Source: Lentisphaeria bacterium
GTDB lineage: Bacteria > Verrucomicrobiota > Lentisphaeria > Victivallales > Victivallaceae
Direction of reading: 5' to 3'
NCBI GenBank assembly: GCA_017504435.1
Contig: JAFVRD010000017.1
Location: forward strand, 1-64,000
Length of the DNA: 64,000 bases
Shown here piece by piece: positions 19,963 to 56,250 of the stretch. A program made the position numbers and the translations under genes. Every line of letters starts with the position of its first letter. Position 1 is the first letter of the stretch. Below the pieces are notes generated by a model, which was not told the origin of the DNA, searched no databases, and worked only from the letters and a program-made list of their open reading frames with translations.

Positions 19963-19990
19963 TTGTAAAAACAAAATACTATGCTATATT
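19963..19990 (+). promoter_or_regulatory. Promoter of structured RNA A
   Basis: TTGTAA (19963-19968), 16-base spacer, TATATT (19985-19990); the expected start is near 19997. Confidence 0.7.
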
Positions 19991-19996
19991 AGTTAT

Positions 19997-20304
19997 AAAT
20001 CTTGGAGCAATATGCTTCAATGGCTGTTAAAAAAACCGTAATATTATTTCAGCAAACGTGACTGAAACCCGCCAAGTATAAATCAAGTTTGCATACCCGT
20101 AGGTGAAATGTACCGGTAGGATTGTGTCTGCACATCTTATCGGGCGCTTCTTAGCATGGGTATGAAAAGTTCTTGGCGGGACTGCAGTCACGGTGCTTGG
20201 GAGCGTTCGTCTTCCAAGCATACTGAGTTTCGCATAGAGAAATCAGTATGATTCAAAAAATATCCGCGGGATTCAGTTTTTTGTCTGAGTTCCGCGTTTT
20301 TTTT
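19997..20304 (+). ncRNA. Structured RNA A (paralogue of RNA B), ends in an intrinsic terminator
   Basis: No reading frame explains this 420-base gap. It folds as a long rod: CGTGACTG/CAGTCACG (20056-20063 with 20184-20191), CCCGCCAAG/CTTGGCGGG, CATACCC/GGGTATG, and a tip CCGGTAGGA...TCTTATCGG with TGTG/CACA. Then follow a TGCTTGG/CCAAGCA hairpin and a TACTGA/TCAGTA hairpin. A second copy at 55841-56215 (-) conserves several blocks (AACCGT, TTTCAGCAAA, ACCGGTAGGATT, CTTATCGGGCGCTTCTT, GTTCTTGG, AGCGTTCGT) while helix sequences differ with pairing kept. CGCTTC can also pair with GGAGCG in the loop of the next hairpin, a possible pseudoknot. The exact 5' end is inferred from the promoter. I recognise no 6S, tmRNA, SRP or RNase P hallmark. 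Confidence 0.75.
20265..20304 (+). terminator. Terminator at the end of RNA A
   Basis: 12-bp stem CGCGGGATTCAG / CTGAGTTCCGCG (two G-T pairs) followed by eight T. It ends 34 bases before the next gene, leaving no room for another promoter. Confidence 0.85.
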
Positions 20305-20338: not shown

Positions 20339-21349
20339 ATGAGCGAGATAAAAATTTCTTGTCCCAAGTGCATGCAAAAAATGTTAGTCGATGCCGAATA
20401 TATCGGTATGGTCGCGCAGTGTCCGAACCCTAATTGTCAAAGCGAATTTCTGATAACAGCTCCACCGGCTCCAGAGCCGCCGATTCAAGTTCCCGGCATA
20501 AAATCTCCTTATCAAACAGTACCACAGCAAAAATCCAATCTCATATCCGGAAATTCATATTCCAGGCAAAAATCTTCGAAGGGCGGGATTCCGTTGAGTA
20601 AAATGCCTGTAAAAGAGAGAGAGAAATTTCAAAAAAAGATGCGCAAATTTTTCGCTTTTTCAGAATCAAACTCCGGCGGTGCGATCGGTGGTATAATAAG
20701 AATTATTACCAGTCTTTTTGGCGGAAGAAAAGACATTCAGGAGATGTTCCAGCAAATAGAGATTGAACAAAAATATTTTCAGGAAGAGGTGTCCGACTGG
20801 TTGGGGGTTGATCCCGATGAGTTATCTTTTGCAGATCCGATTGTATTTACCGGATATGATTTCGCGGATAAACGCGGTTCACGAAAACTTGATGATATTT
20901 TTTTGGAATGGGCTATTGATAAGGAAATCAAATATAACAATAAAAAAATATGGATATCCCCCATTGTTACAATAGTTCAGATCGCATTTTCTGAACATAT
21001 TTTACATTGCTCTCTTAAGTATATTTCATTAGTTTCAGATACCCGTAAATATGTTTCAGATGAATATTTTTATACGGATATTGTTAATGTCAAAGTTGAA
21101 TCTTATCTTCAACAATATGCAGGAAGAATCCCCGGTCTTCTTAAAATTTTATTGAGTTTACTGAGACGTGTGCCAATTATAAAACTTTTTGTGCCGAAAC
21201 AGAAATTCCTTTTGAAAGAATTTAATCAGGCCAGTATTGAAGTTTCCAGCGGCAATGGAGTGAGTTTTTCTGTACCTTCAGAACAAAAAGACAGCATTAA
21301 GGCAATGAAAAATTTGATTAAACAGCGTAAAATGGCAGTTCAGGGATAA
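20339..21349 (+). CDS. Zinc-ribbon protein, first gene of a YdjG-H-I-like operon
   Basis: A 336-residue protein. The N-terminal ribbon has CPKC (residues 8-11) and CPNPNC (27-32), followed by a Pro/Ser/Lys-rich linker to about 110, a short glycine-rich segment (GGAIGGIIRIITSLFGG) and a large domain of unknown fold ending near 336. I do not recognise the main domain. Five genes run in the same direction with short gaps (15, 15, 22 and 8 bases), and the SPFH gene that follows points to a membrane-stress module. There is no room for a promoter between it and the RNA A terminator, so it is probably expressed by read-through. Confidence 0.6.
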   Translation: MSEIKISCPKCMQKMLVDAEYIGMVAQCPNPNCQSEFLITAPPAPEPPIQVPGIKSPYQTVPQQKSNLISGNSYSRQKSSKGGIPLSKMPVKEREKFQKKMRKFFAFSESNSGGAIGGIIRIITSLFGGRKDIQEMFQQIEIEQKYFQEEVSDWLGVDPDELSFADPIVFTGYDFADKRGSRKLDDIFLEWAIDKEIKYNNKKIWISPIVTIVQIAFSEHILHCSLKYISLVSDTRKYVSDEYFYTDIVNVKVESYLQQYAGRIPGLLKILLSLLRRVPIIKLFVPKQKFLLKEFNQASIEVSSGNGVSFSVPSEQKDSIKAMKNLIKQRKMAVQG

Positions 21350-54008: not shown

Positions 54009-55247
54009 TCAATAGTTTTCAATTTCATCAGCCAATTCATTTTGTACCGTTAACGCACCCTTGGCAATCATCAACAATTCAGATTGAGATTTTTTGCGTG
54101 TGAAAATATATTTTTCCGGAGTCAGTACCATTTTTCCCAACAGCAAAGCAGCCGCGACCGCTTCAATCTTTCTGAATTTGCATAAATCTTTCGGACGTTC
54201 CCATATATTGCCGTTAGCCATGTAATTGTGCGCACAGCAATTTGGACAAAATCCTTCAAGTACACAATTTTTGCATTGCGGATCTCTGAATGCGGCATCA
54301 TCATGAAAATCAATTTTTTGTATAACACATGTGCCGTCTTTGACATCTGTTGACGGCATAAATGCCTGACACGGATAAGTGTTACCGTCAGGAGCATAAC
54401 AAATCATGTTGCTTCCTGAACCGCACCATTTTTTGGGGATACTGTTTTCCGGACGCATTGCACGCAATCCGATTTGACCTATTCCTCTGGATACTAAATT
54501 TATCGGCTCAATTTCAGGATTTTCCAAATAAAAATCGACAACGAGCTTTAATTGTTCACGATAAACCGAATACAATTTCTCATCCCATGTCATTCCGTAG
54601 GCAATATTGGCAGAAAAATCAAAGCCTTGAGAGTGAATATATTTTATCCCGTCTGCTAAATAATGAATGCTCAAAGGAGATATGGTCATTTTGCAATGCT
54701 GGTCAGGAAAACATTCCCTAAAAAACTTCAAATCAATCGAATCAAATGAGTTTGACCGGTTCATGTTGTGCATTTGTGGTGTGCCATCCAGACTCAATCC
54801 AATTTTGAATCGGTGTCTGTTTTTCCATAGCCAGGTTTGGGATTCGCCATGAATCAATGTACCGTTGGTTGTGGCAAAGCATATATAGGGTTTATTCCAT
54901 TTTTGTGACCACATCCACTCGCAAATTTCTATAATACGATCAAAAAATAATCCTACTTCACCACCATGAAAATCAAATTCCACAGACTGATATTCTGTCA
55001 TTTGATCTGCTTTTGCAAATTCATTGCTGATAATTTTTTTTAATTCATCAAAAGGGAGGCAATGCAGATCTTTTTGTTTTTCATAACAATATATACAATT
55101 CAAATTACAATTTTCCGTAATGGTAATTTGAACGATCCTGCGTTTGGAAGTGTCATCTTTCATCCATAAATATCCTTCTGTTGGAGGTCGTTTTACCAGA
55201 TGTTCATTCAGCCGCTTCTCTGCAGTAACAGGATTCAGCACAGGCAT
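54009..55247 (-). CDS. Radical SAM/SPASM peptide maturase
   Basis: A 412-residue enzyme. The radical SAM cluster is C47-x3-C51-x2-C54 (ENCNLNCIYCYE). The C-terminus carries SPASM-type auxiliary-cluster cysteines: CGSGSNMICYAPDGNTYPC and CKNCVLEGFCPNCC...C. This architecture is that of anaerobic sulfatase maturases and of RiPP-modifying enzymes; two precursor-like peptides directly upstream argue for the latter. It would cross-link the cysteine-rich core to carbon atoms (thioether formation), by analogy. The start may be 55271 instead. The start region is covered by a hairpin that probably limits translation. Confidence 0.85.
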   Translation of the reverse strand: MPVLNPVTAEKRLNEHLVKRPPTEGYLWMKDDTSKRRIVQITITENCNLNCIYCYEKQKDLHCLPFDELKKIISNEFAKADQMTEYQSVEFDFHGGEVGLFFDRIIEICEWMWSQKWNKPYICFATTNGTLIHGESQTWLWKNRHRFKIGLSLDGTPQMHNMNRSNSFDSIDLKFFRECFPDQHCKMTISPLSIHYLADGIKYIHSQGFDFSANIAYGMTWDEKLYSVYREQLKLVVDFYLENPEIEPINLVSRGIGQIGLRAMRPENSIPKKWCGSGSNMICYAPDGNTYPCQAFMPSTDVKDGTCVIQKIDFHDDAAFRDPQCKNCVLEGFCPNCCAHNYMANGNIWERPKDLCKFRKIEAVAAALLLGKMVLTPEKYIFTRKKSQSELLMIAKGALTVQNELADEIENY

Positions 55248-55253
55248 TTTTAC

Positions 55254-55275
55254 CCGTATACAATTTTGCATACGG
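55254..55275 (-). repeat. Inverted repeat before the radical SAM gene
   Basis: CCGTATgCAA / TTGtATACGG arms (one mismatch each), loop AA, ending seven bases before ATG 55247. It is a degenerate second copy of the hairpin at 55495-55523. Confidence 0.75.
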
Positions 55276-55360
55276 ATGATCACAAAAGTATTATCTCGCC
55301 AACACCGCAAATACAGCCAACTGCACAGTTGCCATGACACGAACCTTCACATGTACCTTT

Positions 55361-55471
55361 TCATCCCCAATGTGACTTGAGAACGCTGGGCATCACGGCT
55401 AATGATACTTGTGGGGGCAATCCGGCGACGAATGATTCGAGTTGAAGTTTGATTTCTTCTGAAAATTTCAT
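55361..55471 (-). CDS. Precursor peptide 2 (leader only as read; possible 63-residue frame if UGA is read through)
   Basis: The 36-codon frame MKFSEEIKLQLESF...LKSHWG ends in TGA at 55361-55363. Its leader matches precursor peptide 1 almost residue for residue, and the DNA is also very similar, so it is a recent duplicate. Beyond the TGA the same frame stays open to 55280, reading KGTCEGSCHGNCAVGCICG... with cysteines in the same four-residue register. The TGA occupies the place of cysteine 37 in peptide 1. Either a nonsense mutation truncated the core, or UGA is decoded (for example as selenocysteine). Confidence 0.65.
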   Translation of the reverse strand: MKFSEEIKLQLESFVAGLPPQVSLAVMPSVLKSHWG

Positions 55472-55494
55472 TTTTGAGATTTTTTTAGAGTGTT

Positions 55495-55523
55495 CACCCG
55501 TATGCAAAGTTTGCATACGGGTG
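55495..55523 (-). repeat. Perfect inverted repeat between the two precursor peptides
   Basis: CACCCGTATGCAAA / TTTGCATACGGGTG, 14-bp arms around a single G. There is no T-run, so it is more likely an RNA-stability or partial-attenuation hairpin than a full terminator. Confidence 0.85.
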
Positions 55524-55532
55524 ATAAAAGTA

Positions 55533-55736
55533 TTATCCCCAGTTGTCGTTAGTGCATGCACTTTGGCAAGTGTAGTCACAGTCGTCTTTACACGCGCCAT
55601 TACACGAACCTTCACATGCTCCTTGACATCCCCAATGTGATTCAAAAACGCTGGGCATTCCGGCTAATGATACTTGCTGAGTCAATCCGGCGACGAATGA
55701 TTCGAGTTGGAGTTTGATTTCTTCAGTGAATTTCAT
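55533..55736 (-). CDS. Cysteine-rich RiPP precursor peptide 1
   Basis: A 67-residue peptide with a strong AAGGAG eight bases before the ATG. Residues 1-36 are a leader (MKFTEEIKLQLESFVAG...). The core has cysteines at 37, 41, 45, 49, 53, 57 and 61, seven in an exact C-x3 periodicity, ending in TNDNWG. The spacers are small or acidic (QGA, EGS, NGA, KDD, DYT, QSA). The regular spacing and the radical SAM/SPASM gene downstream mark it as a ribosomally made, post-translationally modified peptide, possibly with thioether links. I do not recognise a named family. Confidence 0.8.
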   Translation of the reverse strand: MKFTEEIKLQLESFVAGLTQQVSLAGMPSVFESHWGCQGACEGSCNGACKDDCDYTCQSACTNDNWG

Positions 55737-55840: not shown

Positions 55841-55879
55841 ATAAAAAACCGCGATAATCCATTGCCGGATTTCGCGGTT
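55841..55879 (-). terminator. Terminator at the end of RNA B
   Basis: On the minus strand AACCGCGA (55879-55872) and TCGCGGTT (55854-55847) followed by T4ATTT. Confidence 0.75.
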
Positions 55880-56215
55880 GTAAAAACAGAAAGAGAGTAA
55901 ACAATAGGATGATAAAACTGTGAGTCCCCGTCGTTCCATCAGTAAATTTGATTCATTTTACAATGTTTATTGCAAAATCCAACAATCCCTGACTTGCATT
56001 CGGATAAAAAACGAACGCTTCAAAGTATCGCGATGGAGGTCCGACCAAGAACCTGCTCTGAAAACACAAAGAAGCGCCCGATAAGACCTGTTGACACAGT
56101 AATCCTACCGGTATATCGCAACTGATTTCAGAGCAAATGCAAAATTCTACTTGGTCGGTTTCCATCGCCTTTGCTGAAATATAACGGTTTTCAATCAACC
56201 GCTGTCATGGACAGC
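55841..56215 (-). ncRNA. Structured RNA B (paralogue of RNA A), upstream of the RiPP operon
   Basis: Same order of helices as RNA A with different sequences: 5' hairpin GCTGTC/GACAGC, GCGATGG/CCATCGC, CCGACCAAG/CTTGGTCGG, GCTCTGAAA/TTTCAGAGC, tip CCGGTAGGA/TCTTATCGG with CTGT/ACAG. Blocks shared with RNA A include AACCGT, TTTCAGCAAA, ACCGGTAGGATT, CTTATCGGGCGCTTCTT and AGCGTTCGT. CGCTTC is fully complementary to GAAGCG downstream, a candidate pseudoknot. The 5' end comes from the promoter at 56222-56250. After the terminator no canonical promoter is visible before precursor peptide 1. Confidence 0.75.
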
Positions 56216-56221
56216 ACAAAT

Positions 56222-56250
56222 AATATATCCTGTCCCAGGATATATTGCAA
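56222..56250 (-). promoter_or_regulatory. Promoter of RNA B with a palindromic spacer
   Basis: On the minus strand TTGCAA (56250-56245), 17-base spacer, TATATT (56227-56222). AATATATCCTG / CAGGATATATT (56222-56232 with 56236-56246) is a perfect inverted repeat spanning spacer and -10, a likely operator. Confidence 0.7.

Follow-up and report, generated by a model that had tools for sequence, protein, structure and literature searches.

A large family of knotted, probable leader RNAs of Verrucomicrobiota and Lentisphaerota with a predicted intrinsic terminator inside the fold

Two loci with one RNA architecture

The window, by which we mean the whole 64,000-nucleotide stretch of DNA that was analysed, carries two loci that share one RNA architecture: RNA A, with its core at 20033-20209 (+), and RNA B, with its core at 56012-56190 (-). 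The R1 and R2 covariance models described below match the RNA A core with 164.9 bits (E 3.8e-37) and the RNA B core is matched with 158.5 bits (E 1.3e-35), although the E-values of these models, as of the R3 model, are rough. The fold energies of the two loci lie well under those of shuffled controls (z -6.95 and -5.94). The R1 model also finds a third, internally shortened copy in the source genome (G000:C37:170139-170246). The features of the two loci are as follows.

RNA A
19985..19990, +, -10-like box TATATT (from sequence)
20002..20020, +, 5' hairpin TTGGAGCAATATGCTTCAA, close to the probable start of the transcript (from sequence)
20043..20050, +, strand a, pairs with e (20105-20112); helix 1, covariation
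20051..20056, +, strand k (AGCAAA), pairs with k' (TTTGC, 20088-20092)
20057..20064, +, strand b of P2, pairs with b' (20185-20192); double changes in all 8 pairs
20068..20076, +, strand c of P3, pairs with c' (20172-20180); covariation
20092..20098, +, strand d of P4, pairs with d' (20158-20164); double changes in all pairs
20113..20143, +, hairpin P5, f (20113-20126) with f' (20131-20143); covariation
20140..20152, +, f'g, 5' arm of the predicted embedded terminator stem; g-h covariation
20193..20209, +, strand h, 3' arm of the same stem; covariation and sequence
20195..20219, +, P6, alternative hairpin of h and downstream h'; shuffle z across the main group
20223..20233, +, putative antiterminator segment CTGAGTTTCGC within a hairpin at 20220-20249; z -5.2, 0/100 shuffles
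20265..20304, +, predicted second intrinsic terminator, stem and T8; -19.0 kcal/mol
20339..21349, +, ORF with a CxxC (zinc-ribbon-like) N-terminus, followed by an SPFH/band-7 gene
RNA B
56222..56227, -, -10-like box TATATT (from sequence)
56069..56081, -, f'g, 5' arm of the predicted embedded terminator stem
56006..56028, -, strand h (56012-56028) and T6 tract (56006-56011)
55972..55982, -, putative antiterminator segment TTGGATTTTGC; z -2.7
55843..55879, -, predicted second intrinsic terminator AACCGCGAAATCCGGCAATGGATTATCGCGGTTTTTT; -18.1 kcal/mol
55534..55736, -, gene for a short Cys-rich, RiPP-precursor-like peptide, adjoining a radical-SAM gene (54009-55340, -)

The ORF downstream of RNA A has no Pfam match. 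The region 55451-55736 (-) beside the radical-SAM gene encodes two Cys-rich, RiPP-precursor-like peptides (MKFTEEIKLQLESF... and MKFSEEIKLQLESF...), the second of which is broken by an in-frame stop after ...KSHWG.

The sequence-only reading from which we started had described a pair of paralogous structured RNAs with five common blocks and four helices that change sequence while keeping their pairing. On re-reading the sequence, all five blocks are present at both loci and the four helix exchanges are exact (they include the RNA A pairings given above as P2, P3 and P4, with their equivalents in RNA B). Both paralogues are real, although they are members of a phylum-wide family and not only a pair. 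Of the longer spans first proposed, the two cores are supported by covariation, and the remainder consists of leader and second terminator. One of the blocks, AGCGTTCGT, had been taken for a separate element; it pairs over a long range with GGGCGCTTC, forming the 3' arm (h) of that helix. The probable role as a 5' leader, the predicted embedded intrinsic terminator, the crossed helices and the alternative pairings are points that the earlier reading did not contain.

Covariation of crossing helices

The RNA measures about 180 nt and comprises about eleven helices, whose strands run from 5' to 3' in the order a-k-b-c-k'-d-e-f-f'-g-i-d'-j-c'-j'-b'-i'-h-U-tract. Strands b, c and d lie within a 5' hairpin domain (a-e, k-k'), and a 3' domain (f'g-h, i-i', j-j') carries d', c' and b' in its loops and has the U-tract at its end. 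Strands b, c and d pair with b', c' and d' as P2-P4, and f pairs with f' as P5.

We tested a hand-drawn structure of 61 pairs. Across 41 copies, 93% of the cells were paired and 35 of the 61 pairs showed double changes; when the partners were slid by one column, the paired cells fell to 41%. With 101 copies, in an alignment fitted to the nested helices only, 94.5% of the cells were paired, 50 of the 61 pairs had changes on both sides, and the covariation score was 0.525 against 0.213 in shuffles, none of the 500 shuffles reaching any of the measures. Helix g-h crosses the rod and was not fitted in that alignment, and all 8 of its pairs have double changes in the 101 copies. For P2-P4 in 55 distant copies, 95.4% of the cells were paired, with double changes in 24 of 25 pairs and a score of 0.837 against 0.227. 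Covariation thus covers all helices, those crossing the main rod included, and is overwhelming.

The central positions of helix k-k' are paired in about 90% of copies, and this helix has two bases in common with P4: in alignment A4, positions 66-67 form pairs with k as well as with d'. A closing helix P1 formed by AACCG and CGGUU was rejected because subgroups ii and iii are without AACCG. Variable hairpins like TTGGAGCAATATGCTTCAA of RNA A occur at the same place in other loci.

Size and distribution of the family

A blastn search of 60 relatives with RNA A as the query returned about 47 further copies, one to six per genome, most of them about 70-78% similar. Together with the covariation in 41 and 101 copies, which beats all 500 shuffles, this shows that the likeness of the two loci is not due to chance. 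With the R1 covariance model, 52 of the 78 genomes in the bacterial family and 83 of the 137 in the order proved to carry copies; with the R2 model, 89 of the 198 in the class did. Weak R2 matches (41-55 bits) turned out to be real remote relatives, and the third model, R3, made from them, found copies in 111 of 388 sampled genomes of the GTDB phylum. Because the terminator stem tested in the R3 matches had no part in that model, these matches are independently validated. A depth search of ten genomes with R3 gave 2-12 copies in each.

A pattern scan of GTDB followed by the model left 39 of 72 loci, among which the cultured Victivallis vadensis DSM 14823 is represented; this strain has a copy on NZ_QEKH01000025.1 near 317-492 and four further loci. 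All of those whose record names a group come from Lentisphaeria, while two are titled only 'uncultured bacterium'; pattern matches outside Lentisphaeria were set aside as chance. A phage origin was likewise rejected, as the one pattern match in viral contigs was not confirmed by the model.

Copy number varies with lineage. Genus g48 (L150, L154, L155, L157, L159, L183 and L184) has up to eight copies per genome, many of which precede paralogous short zinc-ribbon proteins (MEFKIECPWCNQHYSVDDSF...). The single-contig genome G036 (L325, L326, L329-L331) has tandem RNA pairs about 640 bp apart in repeats of >1 kb that are 93-99% identical.

No Rfam 15 family matches the window at or above its gathering threshold, and 30 distant loci gave only rRNA and tRNA matches, none in the cores; relaxing the limit to E 10 brought only short or chance matches. 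A search mainly of the open literature found no published description of the family, though one large microbiome survey reports thousands of unnamed RNA candidates (PMC8040213). Decisive covariation, many homologues across order, class and phylum, and the lack of an above-threshold Rfam match in the window or in the distant cores bear out the earlier proposal of a functional structured RNA to which no known name belongs. What we describe is a large family of knotted RNAs of about 180 nt, most likely leaders, across Verrucomicrobiota/Lentisphaerota, without an Rfam entry.

Genomic position and downstream genes

Between -100 and -30 relative to the core, 75 of 128 loci have an exact TATATT or TATAAT (TATAWT), compared with 3.1% of control windows. 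In 100 of 113 Victivallales loci the RNA shares its strand with the nearest downstream ORF, whereas upstream genes are divided 68 to 53. Among the distant copies, a same-strand ORF with a Shine-Dalgarno-like site follows in 44 of 51 cases, at a median of 72 nt (controls, 13 of 50). Because of the promoter box and the same-strand bias of the downstream ORF, the RNA is most likely a cis-acting leader.

The downstream proteins include AIDA-type adhesins (6), Sel1 and TPR repeat proteins, zinc ribbons, glycosyltransferases and lipoproteins, as well as WYL regulators, JukA-like and caspase-like proteins and radical SAM/RiPP genes. In the survey of Pfam matches and neighbours, they had no common pathway that would name a signal. 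Since the downstream genes are not confined to one pathway, a general signal is likelier than the metabolite of one route. A general role in defence systems was rejected because few neighbours match defence models (JukA 2, WYL 2, caspase 1). The best reading is that the leaders serve surface, secreted, zinc-ribbon and defence-like genes. In the remote relatives L260-L262, L266 and L315, the downstream gene repeatedly codes for a small protein whose start (MEERILELEKRIEELERTIDIIGEAGN...) resembles a coiled coil.

A predicted terminator within the fold

Throughout the family, strand h folds back from the 3' end onto the internal strand f'g and pairs with it. A U-tract follows immediately after h in 112 of 128 loci, compared with 9% of control windows, and the extension of the stem into f' consists almost wholly of standard pairs. 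In the distant set the U-tract is present in 49 of 55 copies, and in 48 of these 49 the f'g-h stem was matched by at most 7 of 100 shuffles (at most 5 by the test's own tally; mean z -3.75). The distant stems differ in sequence, for instance GGUGCUCCC/GGGGGCACC, GGGCGUCC/GGACGCCC and GAGCGUAUUC/GAAUACGCU. Judged from sequence, f'g-h and the U-tract form an intrinsic terminator, predicted as a G+C-rich stem with a U-tract at once after it, and this stem encloses the 3' strands of P2-P4. RNA A is an exception: the U-tract of its first terminator is lost or degenerate (TCTTCC) and the second terminator is kept.

This terminator has rivals, because f' is used twice, completing the terminator stem and forming half of P5, and because h also pairs with the downstream strand h' as P6 (mean z -2.5 in 74 main-group loci, and -3.4 and -2.4, in three subgroups). 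Besides f' and positions 66-67, the rival helices occupy different bases and therefore could coexist in a single knotted fold. If only nested folding is allowed, the rod has a mean advantage of 15 kcal/mol over the terminator fold, so termination would need to win kinetically; a terminator-only fold that replaces the rod is disfavoured by these nested energies. P6 would be unable to prevent the stop at the U-tract, because h' is made only after it.

In the Lentisphaeria main group, a predicted second terminator, typically GCCGCGAAATCCAG..GGATTATCGCGGC and T's, lies 3' of the core. A segment CTGGATTTCGC, about 27 nt past the core, is complementary to the 5' arm of this terminator, and the pairing is found in most loci that have the terminator. 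At six loci (L056, L025, L035, L136, L053 and L129) the antiterminator segment is separated from the second terminator by long (AGCA)n arrays, often at a contig end; such arrays can change in length and might make expression phase-variable. A subgroup of about 194 nt (L107-L121) has its own conserved downstream block, GTCCTTTGAATTTCTTTGCTG, which is perhaps a group-specific expression platform.

Comparison with known systems and alternative explanations

EAR RNA is a structured cis RNA that is sometimes found before polysaccharide genes; it is without a terminator of its own and acts over kilobases. The present RNA resembles it in being a structured cis RNA and differs in having its own predicted terminator, and no Rfam match links it to the sequence and structure of the EAR or put families. 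In CopA-CopT and pT181-type systems, hairpin loops kiss and then zip to longer duplexes, which in pT181 is coupled to termination. The partners in such antisense attenuation are separate RNAs, whereas both domains here belong to one transcript. For T-boxes, which are marked by a conserved sequence and a specifier loop, no Rfam match was found at E up to 10. The HMP-PP (thiS motif) riboswitch is a terminator-embedded aptamer (PMC6478431), and the present family likewise appears to have a sensing structure and an intrinsic terminator on one stretch of a 5' leader. Unlike the very small HMP-PP aptamers, however, the core here has about 180 nt, crossed domains and no Rfam match, and no thiamin genes occur among the listed Pfam families of the neighbours. 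Acido-Lenti-1 RNA (RF01687) is listed for Acidobacteria and Lentisphaerae, and as not cis-regulatory (PMC2864571); a bacterial group is in common, but RF01687 was not among the matches of the cores at E up to 10.

The RNA could instead be the product of its own small RNA gene and act in trans; in that case the U-tract would simply end the RNA and the crossed helices would form one stable fold. Its own promoter box, its own terminator at the end of the core, the several copies per genome and the mostly disjoint helices, which are able to coexist, would all suit such a gene. We nevertheless consider it unlikely, because the strong same-strand bias concerns the downstream gene only and not the upstream gene, the ORFs of the distant set start mostly 13-160 nt past the U-tract, and second terminators with matching antiterminator segments would not be expected.

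Considerably less probable is a processive antitermination element of the EAR or put kind, a folded RNA that binds RNA polymerase and carries it past later terminators. Although some downstream genes encode glycosyltransferases or long adhesins and many leaders contain another terminator further on, the element has its own terminator, many copies stand ahead of short genes, the local antiterminator pairing matches the second terminators, and there is no Rfam match, EAR included.

That the RNA is part of a mobile element carrying it beside varied genes is the least probable, for although copy number and place vary, one complete genome (G036) has copies inside repeats of >1 kb and several loci lie at contig ends, most copies are about 70-78% alike and have different neighbours, no transposase is regularly adjacent among the listed neighbours, and (AGCA)n arrays account for the contig ends at several loci.

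Proposed mechanism and significance

We therefore favour, with good though not full confidence, a cis-acting 5' leader in the form of a knotted RNA that contains an intrinsic terminator and attenuates transcription, probably in the manner of a riboswitch. Like a riboswitch, it has a conserved structured domain in a 5' leader and a predicted terminator that could exclude another pairing, f' being either in P5 or with h, and h either with f'g or with h'. In the proposed mechanism, f'g would capture h, and the resulting f'g-h stem with its U-tract would stop RNA polymerase. In the other state, with f' held in P5 and the two domains zipped via P2-P4, the stop hairpin would be weakened and the downstream gene transcribed; after read-through, h would be taken by h' in P6. 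In the Lentisphaeria main group, the second terminator with its own antiterminator segment would come next in the leader. A signal, which may be a small molecule, an ion, a protein or RNA, would bias the choice of state.

We put forward more tentatively, as a possibility at somewhat less than even chances, that the family is a new riboswitch class spanning the phylum, whose two intramolecular hairpin domains kiss and zip to open or close the terminator, and that it senses a global signal controlling several unrelated genes per genome, with surface, secreted, defence-like and zinc-ribbon products.

A family of about 180 nt that is new to Rfam thus occurs in many genomes of a phylum whose bacteria come from the gut, the rumen and the environment. 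Should it be a switch, a general signal is likely, because each genome places the RNA before several genes that are unrelated to one another. A cis-kissing architecture would couple a large RNA fold to termination in a new way, and since Victivallis vadensis DSM 14823 carries the family, the system is testable.
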